The notes under the pieces are model-generated. The model made no database searches. It was not told the DNA's origin and saw only the letters and a program-made list of their open reading frames with translations. A stretch of DNA of 64,000 nucleotides from Gammaproteobacteria bacterium. GTDB taxonomy: Bacteria; Pseudomonadota; Gammaproteobacteria; Pseudomonadales; Pseudohongiellaceae. Both the position numbers and the translations under genes were made by a program. Positions 2,714 through 16,533 of this stretch are shown here, in pieces (the stretch's first letter is position 1; each line of letters starts with the position of its first letter). Location: assembly GCA_012960305.1 (NCBI GenBank), contig DUBM01000001.1, positions 1-64,000 of the forward strand, given 5' to 3'.

Positions 2714-3718
2714 CTAGCGCACCACCACTGTCACATCAGCATAGGTAGTATAAGCGCCATCATCGGCGTAGGCGCGAAGCACGTACGTCCCGCTCTGACT
2801 GAAGTTAGCCGTAGCTGCGGCTTCTTCGCCACTGGTACTTAGCGGAGTCACCGCCGAATCTAATTGAACCTGGCCAGGTCCGCGGTATTTAATCCAAGTA
2901 ATGGCTAACCCAGTTTCGTCTGCGGCAGTATAGTTCACGACACCCTGAGACTTAGGCGAATTACGCCCTAGCCCTCCACCGACTTCCGGCAAATCATTGG
3001 GGAGAGGCTCACTCTCCCTGCTGCGCCGATTGTCGCGCGGTCCAGGCAGCCCATCATCGGTAGCAGTAGCGCGCAGCGTCAGTGGACGACCTAAAGCTGC
3101 CGATAGCTGTCCTTCAATGCCTGATATACGCACCGAAGGACGTTCATTAGTATAAGTCACTCCAGTTCGACCACCGGTTCCGCGCCCACGGTTGGCAGCC
3201 CACACGCCCTCATCAACGCTCCAGATATTATCTTTTTCTAGCGTCCCTACGGCGGTGCGTGTTTCACCATTATGACTTAGAGTCCAGACCAGTTCCTTGC
3301 CGACGAAATCTGCGGGAACATCAACACTAAACACGAACTGCTGGCGCCTCGGGTAAAAGTAAGTGGGCTGGCCCCGATCATTGGAACCGGGATCGTCCAG
3401 AATCAAGTTAGGATCAACCGGCCCCGCGAGCAAAACGCCATCGGCTTCCTGAAAAGCGTTTTTATCACCGAGTGGAATATTGGGCATTTCATCGTAGTTT
3501 CGATTCAAGTAACCGAACCACATAGTGAAGGAGCCGTCGGCATTGGTCTCAAAGCCTTCAAAAATTGGCTGTACGCTCTGGCCGAAGCGGTGCAGGATTT
3601 GCGCACTTGCAGCCCCACTGATGCTTGTTAACATTAACGTCAACACCATCGTCAATAAGCTCGTCGACCATGGGAGCATTTTGATACCGCTAGGCATTCG
3701 TGTCTTTCGATTCACCAT
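2714..3718 (-). CDS. Secreted protein of unknown family, partner of the cytochrome c/copper monooxygenase (copy A)
   Basis: The N-terminus has a long leader whose hydrophobic part is about residues 18-40, ending ASAQ. The N-terminal half resembles the protein at 11993-12835: shared features are a G-x-x-V-x-P-I/L-x-E/D-G block, N-x-DG, a short aromatic strand, IPLG and a D/N-rich turn. The C-terminal half looks like an Ig/PKD beta-sandwich (GPGQVQLDS, SGTYVLRAYADDG). A low-complexity R/G/N/S linker lies between them. It starts 47 bases after the cytochrome c/copper monooxygenase gene on the same strand, so they probably form one operon. The recurrent pairing suggests an accessory or substrate-presenting role (inference). 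Confidence 0.7.
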   Translation of the reverse strand: MVNRKTRMPSGIKMLPWSTSLLTMVLTLMLTSISGAASAQILHRFGQSVQPIFEGFETNADGSFTMWFGYLNRNYDEMPNIPLGDKNAFQEADGVLLAGPVDPNLILDDPGSNDRGQPTYFYPRRQQFVFSVDVPADFVGKELVWTLSHNGETRTAVGTLEKDNIWSVDEGVWAANRGRGTGGRTGVTYTNERPSVRISGIEGQLSAALGRPLTLRATATDDGLPGPRDNRRSRESEPLPNDLPEVGGGLGRNSPKSQGVVNYTAADETGLAITWIKYRGPGQVQLDSAVTPLSTSGEEAAATANFSQSGTYVLRAYADDGAYTTYADVTVVVR

Positions 3719-3765: not shown

Positions 3766-5172
3766 TTAGTCGCTGCGCGCGGACAACCGCGCCTGGCGCT
3801 CACTAACAGCCCCATCGTATTCCTCGTCAGTCAGTTCGTACCAACTTATCCAAGAGAAGGACATGTCATCCGTAGAGCGCTGACCAAAACCGACCCAGTT
3901 GCGCGAATCTCCCGCCCAAGGATTAGTAGTAGAGTTGTTGTACCAACTAGAGACGTGCAACATAGAACCTTTGGGAATCAGTGGTTGTACATCCTCCTCG
4001 TAGTTGTAGGCGATATGCCAGCCGAAATCCCAATCTGCGCAACTCAGTGTCTGTCGACGATTATCTTGATAGATCACCTCGATACACTGCCTGGTGCCCA
4101 GATTGTGGAGGTGAGGTTGGAACGCAGTCATACGGATATTTTTATCCAGGAATTCATAGCCGTCAGTGCGGATTGTCTCTTCTCCTCCGGGAAGGTCCAG
4201 ATCCTCGTTATCACCCATATGAGAGCGCACCAGCTTGTGCTCAGGCTCTTCACCTTTGGGCAATAGCCAGAGTGCCAATCTGGTTTGGTCCGTATGATCT
4301 CTCCCATCGGGGCTGGCGGCATAGTGAATATTCCAGTTTAACCTGGTACCCGCCTTGATCAATTGTCCAGTGCCGGGGGGATTAATATCGGCTGTCTTGC
4401 CGAGTGCATACTCACTGAGAAATCCACCTCCACCTTCGGGAAACTCCATTGAAGTTACTGCATGGTGTACAACAGGGAATCCATCTGCCGAAGGTTTTGT
4501 CTCGAAGGCCTTGATCCAGCGGTCTTCAGTCAGACCAGTATCACTATAGAATGTCATCCACCAGTTCGGGCCACCGGCCGGCACATTGAAGGGATCCGGA
4601 ATGGGTATGACCAAATCCGGTGGACGACCCATATCGTCTTGAAGTGTCCAGGCTACATTTTCTTCGAAGACCGGGACAGAGGGCATATTGGCCTCATCGC
4701 CCTGAGGTGCGCCGCTGTCCGCCCAGCTCACAATAATGGCTATTTCCTCGTCGGTTAATGAACGATCGTCCACGAAGTTCTGCACGCCGACAGTTTTATC
4801 GATGAAGTAAGGGGGCATCTTGCGATTCGCCACCCGATCCTTGATAACTGGAGCCCATGCCCTGACGGTTGCGTAATCGATCAGAGACATAGGGGCTATA
4901 GAACCAGGCCGATGACACTCAACGCAATTATCGTAGATGATAGGAGCTACGTGATCGGCAAACGTCAGGTTTGAAGTACTTACCTGTTGACTGATAGCGG
5001 GTGACACTCCAGTCAGCATGATGAATATTGTAGCCATTGCGGCAAAACACTGCCACCACGACGACTTTGAAACTGCCTGGCTTCTCGATCTAAACACTTG
5101 GCACCCTCCTGCATCCCTTCGACTATGATGCCCTGTTGTAGGCAGGGAGTAATGTCGAAAGTTGCTTATCAT
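3766..5172 (-). CDS. Cytochrome c fused to PHM/DBH-like type II copper monooxygenase domain (copy A)
   Basis: After a membrane leader (about residues 39-62) comes a class I cytochrome c domain with CVECH at 83-87 and a probable axial Met at 119 (RKMPP). The rest matches the two-copper ascorbate-dependent monooxygenase family. HH at 236-237 and H283 (NIHYA) fit the CuH site. H354 and H356 (PHLH) plus M437 (TDDMS) fit the CuM site. In peptidylglycine monooxygenase these sites hydroxylate an aliphatic carbon using O2 and two electrons; the fused haem could supply the electrons (inference). The leader before residue 39 is unusually long, so a later start is possible. The substrate is unknown. A paralogue lies at 12940-14274. 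Confidence 0.85.
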   Translation of the reverse strand: MISNFRHYSLPTTGHHSRRDAGGCQVFRSRSQAVSKSSWWQCFAAMATIFIMLTGVSPAISQQVSTSNLTFADHVAPIIYDNCVECHRPGSIAPMSLIDYATVRAWAPVIKDRVANRKMPPYFIDKTVGVQNFVDDRSLTDEEIAIIVSWADSGAPQGDEANMPSVPVFEENVAWTLQDDMGRPPDLVIPIPDPFNVPAGGPNWWMTFYSDTGLTEDRWIKAFETKPSADGFPVVHHAVTSMEFPEGGGGFLSEYALGKTADINPPGTGQLIKAGTRLNWNIHYAASPDGRDHTDQTRLALWLLPKGEEPEHKLVRSHMGDNEDLDLPGGEETIRTDGYEFLDKNIRMTAFQPHLHNLGTRQCIEVIYQDNRRQTLSCADWDFGWHIAYNYEEDVQPLIPKGSMLHVSSWYNNSTTNPWAGDSRNWVGFGQRSTDDMSFSWISWYELTDEEYDGAVSERQARLSARSD

Positions 5173-6991: not shown

Positions 6992-8713
6992 TTAATCCGG
7001 CAAAGCAAAAACCCAAATTACTCCACCCTGGGGCACGTAATGATTTTCACCTTTAACCAGATTCAAAAGATTTTGCTCACGCTGCGCATCAACTCCCCAC
7101 CCTGACTGAACGGCAATATATTGCTTGCCATCTAATGAGTAGGTCACTGGTACTCCAGTAATCCCAGAATTGGTTCGCTGCTGCCATAAAATTTCGCCGT
7201 TGTTGGCATCAAAAGCACGAAAATAGCGATCGTTGGTGCCACCCATAAAAACGAGGTCGCCAGCTGTCGCTAGCACCGGCCCCCAGTTCTGACTGGCAAA
7301 GGAAGTAGTCCAGGCTTTCTCACCCGTATCGACATTCCACGCCTGCAACTCGCCTATGTGGCTGGTGCCAGGTCGCACAAAAAAGCCACCATTTTCCGAT
7401 GGCGCACGTCCCATAAATGGCCGACCCGGTCGAAATTGAACCTCTTCACCTTCCATTGTGGAGCAAACATTATCGTTCGCTGGGATGAAGAGTAGTCTAG
7501 AGACTGGATTAAAAGCTGCTGGCGGCCAATCCTTACCTCCCCAAAGGGACGGGCAGAAGCTTGCTTCAAATCCGGTACCTGGTTTTTTAGACATGTCGTA
7601 CTCAGGACGCCCTGTTACTGGGTCAAGGGTGGTAAACACGTCTTGATATACATAGGGGTTAGCATCGACAAAGTTGATCTGATTCTCTTCTCTCTCCAGA
7701 AACCAAAGGTAACCATTCCTACCCGGATGAACCATGCCCTTAACTGTTTCACCTTGCCGTTGATAGTCAATTAATAGTGGCGCGGAAACTTCGTCCCAAT
7801 CCCAGGAATCATTCCAGTGATATTGATGATGCGCTTTCAGCTCGCCAGTGCTCGCATCTAAGGCGATTGTTGAGGTGGCATAGAGGTTGTCACCTGGTCT
7901 GGTATCTCCCATCCAAGGACCACCGTTGCCTGTCCCCCAATAGGTGACATTAAATTCTGGATCGTAGGAACCTGTCAGCCAAACTGGCACTCCACCGGTT
8001 TGCCAAGTATCTCCTGGCCAGGACTCTGAACCTGGCTCTCCTGGCGCTGGAATTGTATAAGTTTTCCAGGCAGGCTCTCCGGTCATGACATCAAATGCTG
8101 CGACAAAACCTCGAATGCCAAGCTCTCCACCTGACACTCCGACCATAACTTTGCCATCAGCAATCAATGGGGCCATGGTCATATAATAGCCATTGTAATA
8201 ATCCTCAACTTCAACTTCCCAAATCACATCACCAGTTAAGGCATCGAGAGAAACTAGGTATGCATCCACTGTGGCCAAATAAACTCGATCACCATATAAA
8301 GCAACACCTCGATTGGTTGGGTGCATTTGCTGTAGATCGTCTGGCAAAAATCTGACATAACGCCAGATCATGTCTCCTGTTCTGGCATCGATGGCAATGA
8401 TGTGATTTTGCGGTGTGCTGACATACATATATCCGTCATTAACTATAGGAGGTGCCTGGTGCCCCTCTCTAAGGCCTGTTGAAAAACTCCAAACTGGCAC
8501 TAAGTCTTCGACGTTCTCAATATTAATTTCATCTAAAGTACTATAACCATGAGAATCATAAGAACCTCGGTACATTAACCAGTTACTCTCTTCTGGGTTT
8601 TGCAATCGCTCATCGGTCACCGGGTTGTAAGGTGGCAATGATTGCGCAATTGGGCTTAAACACCAGCTGCAAAAAAGCCCGGCAAGGATGATACGATAAG
8701 TACTATTCAACAT
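6992..8713 (-). CDS. Periplasmic PQQ-dependent alcohol dehydrogenase-type quinoprotein
   Basis: A signal peptide of about 24 residues leads into an eight-bladed quinoprotein propeller with repeated AIDARTGDMIW-type blades. Metal and cofactor residues typical of the methanol/ethanol dehydrogenase group are visible: E197 (GGELGIRG), N263 (GTGNGGPW) and catalytic D305. D307 two residues later is the position that marks lanthanide-binding enzymes of that group. The vicinal Cys-Cys pair common in the group is absent; the place before NRGVALYG has no cysteine. There is no cytochrome domain, so electrons must go to a separate carrier, possibly the Rieske protein encoded 54 bases upstream. Substrate is unknown. 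Confidence 0.9.
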   Translation of the reverse strand: MLNSTYRIILAGLFCSWCLSPIAQSLPPYNPVTDERLQNPEESNWLMYRGSYDSHGYSTLDEINIENVEDLVPVWSFSTGLREGHQAPPIVNDGYMYVSTPQNHIIAIDARTGDMIWRYVRFLPDDLQQMHPTNRGVALYGDRVYLATVDAYLVSLDALTGDVIWEVEVEDYYNGYYMTMAPLIADGKVMVGVSGGELGIRGFVAAFDVMTGEPAWKTYTIPAPGEPGSESWPGDTWQTGGVPVWLTGSYDPEFNVTYWGTGNGGPWMGDTRPGDNLYATSTIALDASTGELKAHHQYHWNDSWDWDEVSAPLLIDYQRQGETVKGMVHPGRNGYLWFLEREENQINFVDANPYVYQDVFTTLDPVTGRPEYDMSKKPGTGFEASFCPSLWGGKDWPPAAFNPVSRLLFIPANDNVCSTMEGEEVQFRPGRPFMGRAPSENGGFFVRPGTSHIGELQAWNVDTGEKAWTTSFASQNWGPVLATAGDLVFMGGTNDRYFRAFDANNGEILWQQRTNSGITGVPVTYSLDGKQYIAVQSGWGVDAQREQNLLNLVKGENHYVPQGGVIWVFALPD

Positions 8714-8767: not shown

Positions 8768-9364
8768 TTAGAAATTTTGGGTAAATCCAACTCGGCCTTT
8801 AAAAATACCAGCGACAGTTACGATTCCGTCTACAATCTCCAGCGGAAGCATTGCCAATGGCCGTGGAGCAGGACCTCCTACATTTTTCGCGCCGTCATAA
8901 ACATCAAATTGCGATTCGTGGCAGGGACAGGCCATCCGCAGCAAACCCTCATCCCAATTAATCACGTCGCAACCAGTGTGGGTGCAAACTGCAGAGTAAG
9001 CCACAATACCCTCGGCGGCATTTGCTTGGAATCGTGAGCTAAGCTTTTGACCATCAAGCCTCATTATCATCACCCGATTCAGCCTAGAACCATCTCTTAT
9101 CGTTTCGGTCTCTGGATCCCTCGCTAGCGCCGATACTGGTTGTTGATCCAGCTCGAGCATGTCGATGCCTATTAACTCCCCAATACGATCACCTTCATCG
9201 AAAACCAACTGATCTCCCTGTTGTGGCCGCATTTGATTAGGTGCTTGCCCAAGCACTGTCATTGGAATTGGCATTGCCATGCCTGAAACCAAGCCAGCTT
9301 TGAATATAGTTCTTCGACTTAATAAAGCCTTCTTGTCCTTTCCAAACGACATCTCATTATCCAA
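8768..9364 (-). CDS. Tat-exported Rieske [2Fe-2S] protein
   Basis: The N-terminus has SRRTIFKAG at about 16-24, a twin-arginine motif, followed by a hydrophobic stretch, so the protein is probably folded before export. The Rieske signature is complete: CTHTGC at 127-132 and CPCHES at 146-151. Iron ligands are C127, H129, C146 and H149, and C132-C148 would form the disulfide. Length (198 residues) fits small Rieske subunits. No cytochrome b or c1 gene is near, so this is not an ordinary bc1 complex subunit. Its place at the head of the PQQ dehydrogenase operon suggests an electron-transfer partner (inference). Confidence 0.9.
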   Translation of the reverse strand: MDNEMSFGKDKKALLSRRTIFKAGLVSGMAMPIPMTVLGQAPNQMRPQQGDQLVFDEGDRIGELIGIDMLELDQQPVSALARDPETETIRDGSRLNRVMIMRLDGQKLSSRFQANAAEGIVAYSAVCTHTGCDVINWDEGLLRMACPCHESQFDVYDGAKNVGGPAPRPLAMLPLEIVDGIVTVAGIFKGRVGFTQNF

Positions 9365-9682: not shown

Positions 9683-11731
9683 TTAAGGCACTTTAAAAAC
9701 AATCAGCTCACCAGAGTAACCGCCTCCGCTCACCGCAACCGCTAAATATTGCACACCATCGACTCGATAAGTCATTGGTGATCCAGTCTGTGGTGCTGGC
9801 ATTCGTAAGGCCCCAACTTCAGCCCCTGTACTTTTATCATAAGCACGCAACATGGCGCGACGGACACCATTTTCATCTGAGGTTAGTTCTGCTTCACCAG
9901 CAATCAATAAAGTACTGGTTACTAGAGTTCCTACCGAAGCATTCTGGCCAGTACGGGGGATATCCAAGCCCGCCAAAGCAGGATGGCTGCGCACCCGGTC
10001 CGGGGTTTCACCATGGGCTATCTGCCATAGGATCTCACCACGATTCATATCAATAGCGGTTATACCTCCATAGGGCGGTTTCAACAAAGGCAATCCATCA
10101 ACCCTTAGTCCAATGGGAGGTGTCCCGCGTGACGATTGAGGCCTTTCTGTCCTAGCACCACCGAATTCAGTGCGACCACCACCGGCTGAAGAACCTGCAC
10201 CTCCAGAGGTTCGTGGTCCGGTTGCAGCATTACCTTGAATATATGCCATATCCGACTGCCCTGGATAAGGGGGAACAACTGCTATGCTAGCCAAAGAACT
10301 ATTAGATGAAACATAGAGAGTATTAGTTTCAGGGTCGAATGAACCGCCAGGCCAATTAGTGCCACCACCTGTTGCAGGCGCCATCAAGGTGCCAAGTGGC
10401 CCATTTATGTCGCTAACGACCGGAGGTGTAAAAATGGGGCCAAGTTTATGCCAGCTAGCCACTTCAAGAGCTTTAGCATTTAATTCTGGGGTAAAGTCCA
10501 TTAAGTCACTGAGCGCAACCCCCTGCCGATCGTATGCGGGCGGTTTCGTAGGAAAAGGTTGAGTAGATGAATACCATTCGCCGGGCACATCACCCTGCTC
10601 CACCACACGTTCTTCTATGGGCCAAATGGGCTCGCCAGTCTCTCGATTAAAGACGTATAAGAACGCCTGCTTAGTTGGCTGAGCTACGGCTTTTATCATT
10701 TGCCCGTCGACATTAATGTCGATCAAAATTGGCGCACAGGGAATATCGTGATCCCAGATGCCATGATGGACCAGCTGGTAATGCCATTTCCTTTCACCAG
10801 TGTGCAAATCAACTGCCAGCAGGGATTCGGCAAATAAATTATCCCCTGGGCGATAGGCACCGTAATAATCACCTGTGGCGGTTTCTACCGGCAAATAAAC
10901 AGTCTCTAGCTCGAGATCTACGGATATTTGGGCCCAAACTCCGGTGTTGCCTGTGTAACTGGCGGAATCTCCTTCCCAGGACTCAGAGCCATATTCTCCA
11001 GGCATTGGGATGGTATGGAATATCCAAAGCCGTTCGCCGGAGCGAACATCAAAACCCCTGACATAGCCTTTTACGTTTTGTCGAGATTTAGGATTACCAC
11101 CGGTTCGGTGAGCAGCACCAACAATGACAACATCATTCGCCACTATCGGAGTCGCATGAAGACCTATTTCACCAGTAACTAAATCGATCTGTTGATCTGC
11201 ATTTTGTTTTAAATCTACAACACCGTTCACACCAAATGATTCGATAGGGTCACCGGTACCGGCGTCTAAAGCCACCATGCGATACCCAGGTGTTACATAG
11301 ATAATTCGAGAGTCTTCACCTTCCTGCCAGAACGACAAGCCACGCCCAGAAAGCTGTCTCGGCGAGTTCGCTCCTCGCTCTCCTTCGCGCATACTGTACT
11401 GCCATAGAATTTCACCGGTAATGGCATCTAAAGCCACAACCGCGCGGCGAGAACCCGCAGTGGTATAGATAGTGCCGTTAACCATCAACGGCGTGGCTTG
11501 AAATCGATATTCGGGATTGGGTCCAAAATTGTCAGTCTTGAATCGCCAGGCAACTTCCAAATCGGAAAAATTTTCTGCAGAGATTTGCCCTAGTGCAGAA
11601 TATCGAGTATGACCGAGATCGCCACCATAAGTTGGCCATTCTCCATCAGGCGCCCCTTTTTGAGCCAGGGCAAGTCCTGGGAGGCTAAATAAGAGAATCA
11701 GCAAACTCGAAATGAAGGGTTTCATGGGCAC
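9683..11731 (-). CDS. Soluble PQQ-dependent dehydrogenase of the glucose/quinate dehydrogenase type
   Basis: A signal peptide (about 23 residues, ending ALAQ) is followed by EWPTYGGDLGHTRYS and TAGSRRAVVALDAITGEILW, the opening blades of the membrane glucose/quinate dehydrogenase branch. The active-site region reads HHGIWDHDIPC (322-332), with D327 and D329. Members of this branch usually carry four to five N-terminal membrane helices; here they are absent, so the protein is likely soluble in the periplasm. A low-complexity G/S/R segment near residues 510-530 is an inserted linker. It is a single-gene unit separated by 318 bases from the Rieske operon. Substrate (sugar, polyol or other alcohol) cannot be told. 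Confidence 0.88.
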   Translation of the reverse strand: MPMKPFISSLLILLFSLPGLALAQKGAPDGEWPTYGGDLGHTRYSALGQISAENFSDLEVAWRFKTDNFGPNPEYRFQATPLMVNGTIYTTAGSRRAVVALDAITGEILWQYSMREGERGANSPRQLSGRGLSFWQEGEDSRIIYVTPGYRMVALDAGTGDPIESFGVNGVVDLKQNADQQIDLVTGEIGLHATPIVANDVVIVGAAHRTGGNPKSRQNVKGYVRGFDVRSGERLWIFHTIPMPGEYGSESWEGDSASYTGNTGVWAQISVDLELETVYLPVETATGDYYGAYRPGDNLFAESLLAVDLHTGERKWHYQLVHHGIWDHDIPCAPILIDINVDGQMIKAVAQPTKQAFLYVFNRETGEPIWPIEERVVEQGDVPGEWYSSTQPFPTKPPAYDRQGVALSDLMDFTPELNAKALEVASWHKLGPIFTPPVVSDINGPLGTLMAPATGGGTNWPGGSFDPETNTLYVSSNSSLASIAVVPPYPGQSDMAYIQGNAATGPRTSGGAGSSAGGGRTEFGGARTERPQSSRGTPPIGLRVDGLPLLKPPYGGITAIDMNRGEILWQIAHGETPDRVRSHPALAGLDIPRTGQNASVGTLVTSTLLIAGEAELTSDENGVRRAMLRAYDKSTGAEVGALRMPAPQTGSPMTYRVDGVQYLAVAVSGGGYSGELIVFKVP

Positions 11732-11992: not shown

Positions 11993-12835
11993 GTGACCAC
12001 GACAAAAATCATTTCCAGGCTATTACTCTGCGCACTAGCGTTTGGATCACTGCTGCCTGTAGTTAGCGCTCAGCAAATCGCCCTTTCTCAACAAACCTGG
12101 TCCGCAGAAGTTATTCGCCCACGCGGCCAACCTGTTATTCCTCTCTATGATGGTTGGTTTCCCAACGAGGATGGAACTCGAACTCTTTGCTATAGCTTTT
12201 TTAATTTGAATACTGAACAAACCCTATCGATCCCATTAGGGGTAGATAATTATCTGAGTGATGATCGCTTTGATGCAATCTTACCTACTCATTTCGATCC
12301 ATTGCCACCAAGATACCGTCATAAGTTTTGCGTATTCACCATATCCGTTCCAGAAAGTTTTGCTAGTGATGAGACAATTGTTTGGCACTTAAACAGCGCC
12401 GGACAATCTCTCAGTGTTCCCGGTCACACAAAACCAGCTTATGTTCTAGATGAGCCTTTCTCTGATGGTCGCGGTGATATCGCCCCTCTAATAAAATTAA
12501 CCGCCACCGACGAGGGTGCTCGCGGCCGCCTCGGAATTCATAACAAAACAATATTAACTGGCAAAGCGGGAGAAGCTGTTTCATTAACTGCCTGGATAGA
12601 ACATCCCGACCCCGAAGTATGGATTGGCTGGGCGAAACACTCAGGACCTGGCTCAATTGAGTTTAGTGATTTGGAATATACGATTTCACCGAACCAGGGC
12701 CCCACTCAAGTACAAGCAATCTTCTCTGAGGCAGGCGATTACACCGTTCGACTGCAGTCGATTGATGATGTCGCCGCCTTTGAATTTTATTGTTGCCATA
12801 GCAACGCCTATTACCGGATCAATATAACTAACTAG
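11993..12835 (+). CDS. Secreted protein of unknown family, partner of the cytochrome c/copper monooxygenase (copy B)
   Basis: The gene starts at a GTG with only a weak AGAAG upstream. A signal peptide of about 26 residues ends VVSAQQ. The N-terminal half is related to the protein at 2714-3718: GQPVIPLYDGW, PNEDGTRTL, SIPLGVDN and later VPESFASDETIVWHL match in order. The C-terminal sandwich (HSGPGSIEF, GDYTVRLQSID) matches the PKD/Ig-like end of copy A. It is shorter because the R/G-rich linker is missing. A CC pair (YCCHS) near the C-terminus is peculiar to this copy. It precedes the copper monooxygenase gene by 104 bases, the reverse of the order in copy A. Confidence 0.72.
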   Translation: MTTTKIISRLLLCALAFGSLLPVVSAQQIALSQQTWSAEVIRPRGQPVIPLYDGWFPNEDGTRTLCYSFFNLNTEQTLSIPLGVDNYLSDDRFDAILPTHFDPLPPRYRHKFCVFTISVPESFASDETIVWHLNSAGQSLSVPGHTKPAYVLDEPFSDGRGDIAPLIKLTATDEGARGRLGIHNKTILTGKAGEAVSLTAWIEHPDPEVWIGWAKHSGPGSIEFSDLEYTISPNQGPTQVQAIFSEAGDYTVRLQSIDDVAAFEFYCCHSNAYYRINITN

Positions 12836-12939
12836 CTATTAGTTAATTAACTATGAATTAGTTCTTTGATTAACTTTTAATTATCTGTGAATTAAAACAG
12901 CAAGACCCAACCCTGGCGCTAAGCGCAAAGGAGCTACGA

Positions 12940-14274
12940 ATGATCACTATCCGACATAGTCAACAAATCATGACAATTGCAACTGCGACTTTCTTTGCTG
13001 CTGTCTGCTTTAGTAGTTCGGCATACACACAGTCTTCTGAGCCAACTTTTTCACGTGATGTGGCACCAATATTTCAGGAGAAGTGTCAGACTTGTCACAA
13101 TCCAGAAGGCATCGGACCGATGCCCCTGATGAATTATGCGCAGGTAAAACCATTCGCGGCCCTGATCAAAGATCGCACTACTAAAGGTATTATGCCTCCG
13201 TGGCACAACGACACGACCACAGGCATTCAGAGTTTTAAAAATGATGCGTCTCTCAGTGAAGCACAGATCACTACCATTGCTCAGTGGGTAGATGAGGGTG
13301 CGATTGAAGGCAACCCAGCAGACCTCCCAGCTCCTATCAAATTATCTAACGGCGCTGCGTGGCAGCTGAGCGACCAACTGGGCCCGCCTGATGTAATCAT
13401 TAAATCAACTCCCTACAATGTAGTCGCCAATGGCCAAGATCAGTGGTGGACCCCAAACGTTCGTTTCGAAGGCATGGACAAAGAACGCTGGCTGCGAGCT
13501 GCAGAGTTTAAACCCTCCTACCCACTGGGGAAGAAAGTAGTTCACCACGGTCATGCTGTTTTGATCCCTGAAGGTGAAAAACGACAGGTCGCACTTGCCA
13601 GATATGGTGTGGGGAAATCCTGGGAAATGTATCCTGAAGGCACGGGCATGCGAGTACCCGCTAAGGGAACTATCGCCTGGAATTTACATTACTTTCCGGT
13701 TGGTATTGAAGGTGACAATGATGTTGTCGAAGTCGGTTTATGGTTCTATCCAGAAGACCGGCAACCGGAGTTTGAAACTGCAGGTGAAGCCATGTTCCGC
13801 GTCGATGGGCTAAATGGCATGGCTAGAGGCCAAGACATTGTGATTCCCCCTCACGGCTATCAGGTTATTACTGGCACCCATGTCTTGCAAGAACCAGCAA
13901 TCATTCACAGCTATCGCCCTCATCTCCACATGCGTGGGAAAGTCATGACCATGGAAGCAATCTATCCAGATGGTCGCACGGAAGTGATTCAGCAGGTGAA
14001 CAAATATAACCATAATTGGCAAATTTCGTACATCTACGAAGATGATGTAAAGCCATTGTTGCCGAAAGGAACAGTATTACAATTTACTTCTGTTTTTGAC
14101 AATACGGTTAATAATCCAATTAACCCGGATCCAAATCAATGGGTTGTATTTGGCCGCCGTGGGGTGGACGAAATGAGCCACGCCTGGGTCGGCATCACTT
14201 ATATCAATGAAGAACAATACGCAACGGCAGTTGGCGCGCGACGAGCCTCACAGGAAACTCTCTCTCTCGACTAA
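12940..14274 (+). CDS. Cytochrome c fused to PHM/DBH-like type II copper monooxygenase domain (copy B)
   Basis: AAGGAG sits ahead of the ATG. A signal peptide ends near residue 30 (SAYTQ). The cytochrome c domain has CQTCH at 49-53 and a probable axial Met at 85 (GIMPPW). The monooxygenase part shows H202-H203 (VHHGH) and H250 (NLHYF) for the CuH site, and H328, H330 (RPHLH) and M412 (VDEMS) for the CuM site, so all six copper ligands of peptidylglycine monooxygenase have counterparts. This predicts an O2-using periplasmic hydroxylase with a built-in electron input (inference). It is followed 15 bases later by a PQQ dehydrogenase that could oxidise the alcohol made. Confidence 0.87.
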   Translation: MITIRHSQQIMTIATATFFAAVCFSSSAYTQSSEPTFSRDVAPIFQEKCQTCHNPEGIGPMPLMNYAQVKPFAALIKDRTTKGIMPPWHNDTTTGIQSFKNDASLSEAQITTIAQWVDEGAIEGNPADLPAPIKLSNGAAWQLSDQLGPPDVIIKSTPYNVVANGQDQWWTPNVRFEGMDKERWLRAAEFKPSYPLGKKVVHHGHAVLIPEGEKRQVALARYGVGKSWEMYPEGTGMRVPAKGTIAWNLHYFPVGIEGDNDVVEVGLWFYPEDRQPEFETAGEAMFRVDGLNGMARGQDIVIPPHGYQVITGTHVLQEPAIIHSYRPHLHMRGKVMTMEAIYPDGRTEVIQQVNKYNHNWQISYIYEDDVKPLLPKGTVLQFTSVFDNTVNNPINPDPNQWVVFGRRGVDEMSHAWVGITYINEEQYATAVGARRASQETLSLD

Positions 14275-14289
14275 CTGAGAGAGAATGTT

Positions 14290-16533
14290 ATGGAAAATAC
14301 TTTTCTTCATTCCAAATGGCTTGGTGGTGAATCGCTCGCTGGCTATAAATTTCTAGCTAGAGCTAGCCAAGTATTATTCGTAGCTATAGCATTTGGTTTC
14401 GCGATTCTCTCTTCCACTAACCTTGTCGCACAATCTCAGCTGCAACAAGCTACTTACAAGGAAGAACAATCTCAACTAGGGGAATCTCTTTATCAGCAAC
14501 ACTGCATGGTATGCCATTTAGCTGACCTACAGGGCTCTTTCGAAGCCAGTTCGTTAAGTGGTGGGAATTTTGTTAGAAGCTGGAACAATCGTACCATAAC
14601 TGAGCTTCAAGATCTGTTGAGACGCACCATGCCTCCGCAGTCTCCTGGCAGCCTCACTGACACAGAATACTCAAACCTAACCGCTTTTCTACTAAAAGAA
14701 AACGGCGTCGCCAACGGTATCCAAGCTTTAGATTTTCAATCCAGTGGTGTCGCCTTTATTGGTATCGGTAATGACGGTCGTCAAATTGAAGAGCGTCTGC
14801 CGGTACCCGGAAGAGCAGGCACGATTCCTTCGCCAGGCACCCGTAACCAAGTTCCGGAAATCGCCACTGTTTACCAGTCCGATAGGGCTATAAGTCGCTC
14901 CCTGCAACCAGTACCTGGATTTCACAATGTTAGCGAAGAAGAGCTAGCGAATCCCGCTGCCGAAGACTGGACCTATTGGCGCCGCACTCCAAGCAGCCAG
15001 GGATACACTCCACTCGATCAAATTAATACCGGAAACGTTCAAAATCTCAGCCTGGAATGGGTATGGGGCATGGAATCTGGACGCAGTCAGCCTGCACCGC
15101 TGGTGCGAAACGGAATTATTTTTGTTCCCAACTTCGGCAATATTGTGCAAGCTCTAGATGGGCGAGATGGCACCTTGTTATGGGAATATCGAAGACTGTT
15201 TCCCGAGGGCGGACGTACGGGTGCGCACCTACGAACCTTGGCCATGTGGGAAGACATGATTTATGTCGCCACTACTGATGCTCATCTCGTAGCACTGGAC
15301 GCGCGCACTGGGGCAGTTCGTTGGGATGTGGAGATTGATGACGAAAGCAAAGGTTATTCCAATACAAGCGGTCCCATTGTCGCAAATGGTAAGGTCATCA
15401 ACGGTATTACCGGTTGCGGACGATTTTACGAAGATAGCTGTTTCATAACTGGACACGATGCTCACACCGGCGAAGAGCTTTGGAGAACTTACACCGTTGC
15501 CAAACCCGGGGAGCCCGGCGGTGATACATGGGGTGACTTACCGCTCGAATTCCGTGGAGGTGTCGATGTATGGATGACCGGAAGCTGGGATCCTGAACTA
15601 AACCTGGTGTTCTTCGGAACTGCTCAAGCAAAACCATGGATGGCTGCAAGCCGAGGTATGAGTACGGAAGATTCCGCGCTCTATTCAAACTCTACTCTGG
15701 CACTGAATCCAGATACTGGCGAACTAGTTTGGTATCGCCAACATGTTCCCGGCGAATCACTAGATATGGATGAAGCCTTTGAACAGGTGCTAATTGATAT
15801 ATTAGACGAACCTTTTCTACTAACAATTGGAAAGAGCGGAGTCTTATGGAAATTAAATCGTCGGACCGGAGAGTTCGAAGGGTTAAAAGAGACTGTTTAC
15901 CAGAACATATTTTCCGACATTAATCTGGAAACGGGTGAATTACGATATCGAGAAGATATTCAAAATATGCAGATTGGCGAGTGGCTTTCGGTTTGTCCGT
16001 CGACCGCAGGCGGACATAATTGGCAGTCCACTAGCTTTCATCCCCCTAGCAGACAATTAGTTATCCCCTTAAGTCAATCATGCATGGAAATGTCTCCACG
16101 AGAGACCACTTTTGAAATTGGCTCTGGTGGTAATCAAGGTGACCGCATGTGGATGGAAATGCCCGGCACCGAAGGTCAATTCGGAAAACTTGCTTCTTAC
16201 GATGTTGAGACTCTCGAAGAAAAGTGGAGCATTGAACAACGAGCACCCTTTTTAACAGCAGCATTAAGCACTGGAGGGGACTTATTATTTATCGGTGACT
16301 ACAATCGTTATGTGCATGCCTTTGACATTAATTCTGGAGAGGAACTCTGGAGAACACGTCTAGCCACTTCTGCACAGGGTTTTCCTGTATCGTATGCTGT
16401 CGACGGCGAGCAATACATCGCCATACCTGCCGGTCGTGAAGGTGGCAGTCCGTGGCGGATCGGTAATTTTCTCGCACCTGAACTGGTAAGCCCCGACGGC
16501 CACAATGCCCTGTATGTGTTTAAACTTCGCTAG
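14290..16533 (+). CDS. PQQ-dependent dehydrogenase with N-terminal cytochrome c domain (quinohaemoprotein)
   Basis: A hydrophobic segment at about 28-48 ends LVAQ and acts as export signal or anchor. A cytochrome c domain follows with CMVCH at 72-76 and a probable axial Met at 114 (RTMPPQ). From about residue 225 the quinoprotein propeller begins. Active-site residues are E381 between C376 and C384, and D492 with D494 (SLDMDE). The usual Trp before the catalytic Asp is replaced by Leu. In most quinohaemoproteins the haem domain is C-terminal; here it is N-terminal. The gene is third in the copy B operon, and the haem can pass substrate electrons to a terminal oxidase chain. Substrate unknown. 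Confidence 0.9.

Follow-up and report, generated by a model that had tools for sequence, protein, structure and literature searches.

We analysed a window of 64,000 nucleotides from a Pseudohongiellaceae genome (Gammaproteobacteria; GCA_012960305.1, contig DUBM01000001.1, positions 1 to 64,000) and focused on copy B, a gene at 12940..14274 on the forward strand encoding a predicted secreted protein of 444 residues, in which a cytochrome c is fused to a dicopper domain like those of PHM (peptidylglycine alpha-hydroxylating monooxygenase) and DBH. The results indicated that copy B is probably a periplasmic dicopper C-H hydroxylase with the PHM/DBH fold that is reduced by its own N-terminal c-type haem. 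The fold and the copper ligand set are well supported; from these and from the gene context we infer copper occupancy, the electron route, the hydroxylase chemistry, the substrates and the role of a partner protein encoded next to copy B.

The open reading frame (ORF) of copy B is intact, with an ATG start, 444 codons and a TAA stop, and a Shine-Dalgarno-like AAAGGAG (12927..12933, +) lies 6 nt 5' of the ATG. Residues 1-31 (12940..13032, +) resemble a signal peptide as judged by eye, and the predicted model has a predicted local distance difference test score (pLDDT) below 50 there. The original prediction had described a haem site followed by six copper ligands in the order and local context of the CuH and CuM sites of PHM, and all of its residues were found where it had placed them: the conserved haem c motif C49-Q-T-C52-H53 (13084..13098, +), then H202, H203 and H250-Y251-F252, and in the second half P327-H328-L329-H330, G333-K334 and D410-E411-M412. 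The predicted CuH ligands are H202-H203 (13543..13548, +), based on alignment to DBH and conservation, and H250 (13687..13689, +), which aligned to DBH H333. The predicted CuM ligands are H328 (13921..13923, +) and H330 (13927..13929, +), aligned to DBH H412 and H414, and M412 (14173..14175, +), placed opposite DBH M487 or PHM M314 in most fold-match rows. Copy B also has the CxxCH motif of a class I c-type cytochrome together with a conserved Met for the distal position: by comparison with that class, M85 in an MPP motif (13192..13194, +) is the candidate sixth haem ligand. The cytochrome families of Pfam scored just under their cut-offs (Cytochrome_CBB3, 24.7 against 27 bits; Cytochrom_C, 20.9 against 21.3). 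The genome encodes CcmF, which makes attachment of c-type haem probable.

We then compared these residues in two alignments, A3 (65 sequences, including copy B and its paralogue copy A) and A1 (20 copies from copy B's own genome, copy B included). Exactly six of the 14 histidines of copy B, namely H53, H202, H203, H250, H328 and H330, were identical in all 65 sequences of A3, as were M61, M85, M412 and C52. C49 was present in 64 of 65, the remaining sequence reading X, and H89 and H414 were also kept in 64 of 65. Among the own-genome copies, C49, C52, H53, M85, H202, H203, H250 and M412 were found in 20/20, and H328 and H330 in 19/20. The expectation that homologues would keep all six copper ligands thus held across A3 for the five histidines as well as M412, a pattern that goes beyond chance. 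One own-genome copy, L018 (L018:1006-2706), has R and N in place of the CuM histidines and retains the haem site, the CuH ligands and the Met; judged by its residues, it may be a natural single-copper or inactive variant.

The predicted model of copy B matched the two-domain jelly-roll core of PHM and DBH, with 15-18% identity across the aligned core (15% to human DBH). H202 and H203 aligned to DBH chain positions 223 and 224, which correspond to H262 and H263 at an offset of 39. M412 was opposite DBH M487 or PHM M314 in 19 of 26 fold-match rows, as judged from the range ends, and 1-2 residues off in the other 7; the span of the Pfam family Cu2_monoox_C placed it there too. A structure comparison with Foldseek, of the kind proposed with the original prediction, gave a PHM/DBH fold for the model. 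Among bacterial proteins, PNGase F has a double jelly-roll fold and belongs to the same Pfam clan as PHM, CL0612 (PMC8812541, excerpt).

Several results weigh against the proposed haem-reduced hydroxylase. The target-normalised Foldseek template modelling scores (TM-scores) were moderate, 0.50-0.65 against PHM and 0.37-0.39 against DBH, with root-mean-square deviations of 4.6-7.3 A. In the search with Cu2 monooxygenase profiles, copy B scored 21.0 bits for Cu2_monoox_C (PF03712), below the cut-off of 23 bits, and just 2 of the 65 A3 members, copy B being one, reached E 1e-3; copy A scored 13.1 bits, and L016 alone (24.6) exceeded the cut-off among ten further copies scanned. The N-terminal Cu2 monooxygenase family was absent from the Pfam matches of copies A and B, the ten other copies and the A3 members. 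When sequences of the PDB were searched, copy B alone (phmmer) gave no match, and profile A3 gave four weak unrelated matches, neither DBH nor PHM. The more diverse 20-copy profile A1 reached DBH at E 0.011, which is weak taken alone, and matched a haem stretch of hydrazine synthase and an unrelated sensor at similar strength. The cysteines of copy B are C23, C49 and C52 only, so it lacks the core disulfides that we take to be a feature of PHM and DBH. The gene context adds to these points: 11 of the 21 full-length copies in the genome have no adjacent gene for the partner protein, and only 4 of the 21 have a pyrroloquinoline quinone (PQQ) enzyme gene within 2 kb. For PQQ synthesis, pqqC gave no match in the own genome in a search whose control was also without signal, and pqqE gave only below-cut-off matches there, as in all 14 control genomes.

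The claim of a PHM-type copper monooxygenase was supported in part: the fold, the CuH and CuM ligands, the c-type haem site in the same protein and the signal-peptide-like N terminus agree with it, and the Pfam score is below the cut-off. Since copy B belongs with PHM and DBH on structural grounds but misses that cut-off and lacks the core disulfides, we placed it in a sister family inside the PHM/DBH superfamily, not among the ascorbate-dependent monooxygenases.

In the mechanism that we propose, a periplasmic donor would reduce the His/Met haem, which would hand single electrons to CuH and CuM; this donor could be the pool of cytochromes c or the cytochrome c-PQQ dehydrogenase whose gene adjoins copy B. 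With O2 at CuM and the substrate alongside, one C-H bond would be hydroxylated, the second electron coming from CuH. In the copy-B cluster, the PQQ enzyme may go on to oxidise the alcohol product. The known PHM and DBH enzymes are driven by ascorbate and are mainly eukaryotic; electron sharing and O2 activation by their two coppers have long been debated. The fused haem, as read from the protein layout, argues for a donor other than ascorbate. Rat PHM, unlike copy B, is not known to have a fused haem. It takes electrons from ascorbate and acts on peptidylglycine substrates that a lyase finishes, and its coppers are ~11 A apart (PMC6123673, excerpt). Human DBH (4zel) has an N-terminal DOMON domain without typical haem ligands (PMC4846438, excerpt) where copy B has a c-type cytochrome. 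The donor of DBH is ascorbate, whereas that proposed for copy B is its own haem.

The substrate anchors of PHM are, we assume, R240, N316 and Y318. The excerpt of PMC6123673 does not mention these residues. The matching positions, two residues before the first CuM His and two and four residues after the CuM Met, are R326, H414 and W416 in copy B, which differ in part from PHM, and A3 has R in 50/65, H in 64/65 and W in 60/65. The 20 own-genome copies showed 13 combinations, such as QHW, EIL, GNR, RIY and LFA, which fits differing substrates among the copies better than a single shared role, suggesting that the paralogues may be separate enzymes with differing substrates.

Four other explanations were considered. 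It is rather unlikely that the copper sites are real but serve a peroxygenase or a peroxide-making, O2-reducing oxidase, with the haem merely priming the copper or draining electrons. H2O2 is described as able to bypass one of the requirements of PHM (PMC6123673, excerpt), which we take to be that for reductant, and a redoxin-like N-terminal domain in six copies is a hint that some members may carry out peroxide or thiol chemistry; however, these redoxin-like domains have no CxxC, and the CuH and CuM ligands are kept together throughout A3, although the second-electron role of CuH is not obviously needed by a peroxygenase. Reverse electron flow, from a substrate oxidised by the copper domain through the cytochrome to the respiratory chain, is improbable. 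The PQQ dehydrogenase encoded next to copy B carries a fused cytochrome c of its own, so such fusions may act as exits, but the full PHM/DBH ligand set on this fold is not known to us outside electron-consuming, O2-activating hydroxylases (for PHM, PMC6123673, excerpt). We consider it very improbable that these proteins serve in copper binding, copper trafficking or sensing, with the fold retained and catalysis lost: L018 lacks both CuM histidines and the copy number is very high, yet 19 of the 20 copies keep every ligand although the others share only 26-50% identity with copy B, and a storage protein would need no haem. A true peptide-amidating or catecholamine-type enzyme gained from eukaryotes would have the same fold and ligands, but the core identity of 15-18%, the lack of a lyase domain in the 444 residues and the wide, deeply divergent distribution across Gemmatimonadota, Acidobacteriota and Gammaproteobacteria make this extremely improbable.

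For a haem-reduced hydroxylase, the adjacent PQQ enzymes are possible functional partners. The gene 15 bp downstream of copy B (14290..16533, +) encodes a PQQ alcohol dehydrogenase-like propeller with a cytochrome c fused at its N terminus, and a divergent PQQ dehydrogenase-like protein is encoded at 9683..11731 (-), also in the conserved copy-B neighbourhood. Of the 25 proteobacterial loci of the copy-B type (L026-L050), 24 have the downstream cytochrome c-PQQ gene, the exception being L035, which stops 412 bp after the copper gene; the divergent PQQ gene was present in 22 and was not found in L034, L038 and L046. In nine more loci (L054-L056, L058-L062 and L064), five of which have Gemmatimonadetes or Gemmatimonadota in their titles, a cytochrome c-PQQ homologue precedes the partner and copper genes. 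The two gene orders of the same three genes indicate a functional link in the copy-B group. Across the loci of relatives, which are biased to those of copy B, a PQQ gene was within 3 kb of 53 of 85 copper ORFs. A PQQ dehydrogenase as the general partner of every copy was rejected on the own-genome count given above, and the link holds for the copy-B group. The own genome has about 44 PQQ-dehydrogenase-type genes (our count from 67 matches) in 3.1 Mb. Among 36 genomes of the genus, pqqC was found in 11, and the organism may use PQQ from its neighbours, or some of these enzymes may work without PQQ.

We tentatively suggest, as a possibility that we rate below even, that the copy-B cassette is electron-neutral: the copper enzyme would use two electrons in converting R-H to R-OH, the PQQ dehydrogenase would oxidise R-OH, and the two electrons would return through both cytochrome domains to the copper enzyme. 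If this is true, the net reaction would be R-H + O2 -> R=O + H2O, without NADH, quinol or ascorbate. Bacteria with dozens of such enzymes would then have a modular set of periplasmic tools for oxidising dissolved organic matter. Particulate methane monooxygenase and methanol dehydrogenase offer a parallel, in which a PQQ alcohol dehydrogenase acts after a copper hydroxylase in the periplasm, with a proposed electron return; unlike copy B, this monooxygenase is a membrane enzyme of unrelated fold with no fused cytochrome. Fungal lytic polysaccharide monooxygenases (LPMOs) have a copper site and fold unrelated to the PHM/DBH type. A PQQ pyranose dehydrogenase drives a fungal LPMO (PMC5960967, excerpt), and this copper monooxygenase fed by a PQQ enzyme is an analogy for the copy-B cluster, although the cytochrome of the fungal system is of the b type, not c (PMC6881789 and PMC4332668, excerpts).

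Upstream of copy B, partner gene B (11993..12835, +) encodes a secreted beta-rich protein of 280 residues with a C-terminal PKD/Ig-like domain and the vicinal pair C267-C268; its model was beta-rich, with a pLDDT of 88.1 and a predicted TM-score (pTM) of 0.82. Partner gene A (2714..3718, -) lies directly downstream of copy A, and the two partners share 29% identity over 124 residues. The C-terminal half of the partner resembles PKD, Ig and PapD domains, and 12 of 60 members matched PKD. Searching the genome with partner A gave 16 matches, resolved to 12 genes, all of which lie in clusters with copper genes; one of the 12 comes second in a tandem pair, and another adjoins a copper gene that is truncated at a contig end. 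A same-strand partner was found within 108 bp of 10 of the 21 full-length copper genes. In 80 loci of relatives, kept from 235, 79 of 85 copper ORFs (fragments counted) had a same-strand partner frame overlapping or within 400 bp, 59 upstream and 20 downstream, with a median gap of 10 bp. The six exceptions were in L051, L057 and L081 (none found), L095 (one ORF, with its partner 64 bp off on the opposite strand) and L033 (two contig-edge pieces). The idea that every member needs the partner as a subunit was rejected, as no partner lies within 108 bp of the six redoxin-type copies or of five others; together with the PQQ count, this indicates that neither gene is needed by every member. Our guess is that the partner is an accessory or substrate-binding subunit. 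The vicinal Cys pair was kept in ~95% of 74 aligned partners and was not seen in that of copy A.

The genome of copy B (3.11 Mb, 97.3% complete) gave 26 family matches, resolved into 21 full-length genes and fragments. Copy A (3766..5172, -) encodes 468 residues, is 35% identical to copy B and has all six copper ligands. Six of the 21 copies (L014, L016, L017, L018, L019 and L119, the last at L119:5517-7355) are fusions of redoxin-like, cytochrome c and copper domains, the redoxin-like domain being detected by Pfam in L014, L016, L017 and L019 and by alignment in L018 and L119. All 37 genomes of the genus, the own genome included, had 9-29 matches at E 1e-10, counts that are at least these values where 29 candidates per genome were reached; none of 21 genomes from other families of the same order had a match at this threshold. 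Within the same family, 46/46 same-genus genomes and 32/53 others matched at E 1e-20 (99 genomes, best 17 candidates per genome), with just 2 matches in one genome of the genus. Among 298 genomes of other Pseudomonadota, of which the best 5 candidates each were scored, 2 matched profile A3 at E 1e-20, one of them with under half of the profile covered.

Named records among the 80 loci were proteobacterial (including Pseudohongiella), Gemmatimonadota, Acidobacteriota and one doubtful Dehalococcoidia. Chloroflexota was dropped as an additional phylum, since the protein of the 'Dehalococcoidia' L081 is identical to that of Acidobacteria L080, probably through a binning error. The whole genomes behind 12 of the 80 loci had 1 to 55 matches each, the highest being the L068 genome (G436), a Vicinamibacteria assembly of ~4.2 Mb. 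In a tree of 83 rows, which has several copies on long branches and a sample picked by similarity to copy-B-like queries, the own-genome copies were scattered among relatives of other phyla, with 6 changes of the 'own' label. In A3, copy B shared 51-59% identity with those of L052-L093 that come from Gemmatimonadota and Acidobacteriota, and 42-47% with L095-L105; in A1, it was 26-43% identical to 18 of the 19 other own-genome copies and 50% to one. Copy B is thus nearer to members from other phyla than to most copies of its own genome, suggesting that most copies are old.

Where the 120 listed relatives carried source names, these were 'cytochrome c', 'c-type cytochrome' and 'hypothetical protein', and most rows were nameless. 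If the proposed function is true, a large class of bacterial periplasmic hydroxylases, with up to 55 matches per genome examined, would be hidden under such names. This class would provide an extra route for the oxidation of dissolved organic matter and a source of catalysts for hydroxylation. In a soluble bacterial enzyme with a covalent donor, haem-to-copper transfer could also be followed optically within one polypeptide. We found no description of a bacterial cytochrome c-PHM fusion among the top-ranked results from the open-licence PubMed Central literature, a search that does not show its absence from print.

Further from copy B, a Rieske-domain protein with a twin-arginine-like leader, judged by eye, is encoded at 8768-9364 (-) and adjoins a PQQ dehydrogenase gene (6992-8713). 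This protein is possibly another periplasmic electron carrier. The copy-B clusters of L040 and L042 also have equivalents of both genes nearby.
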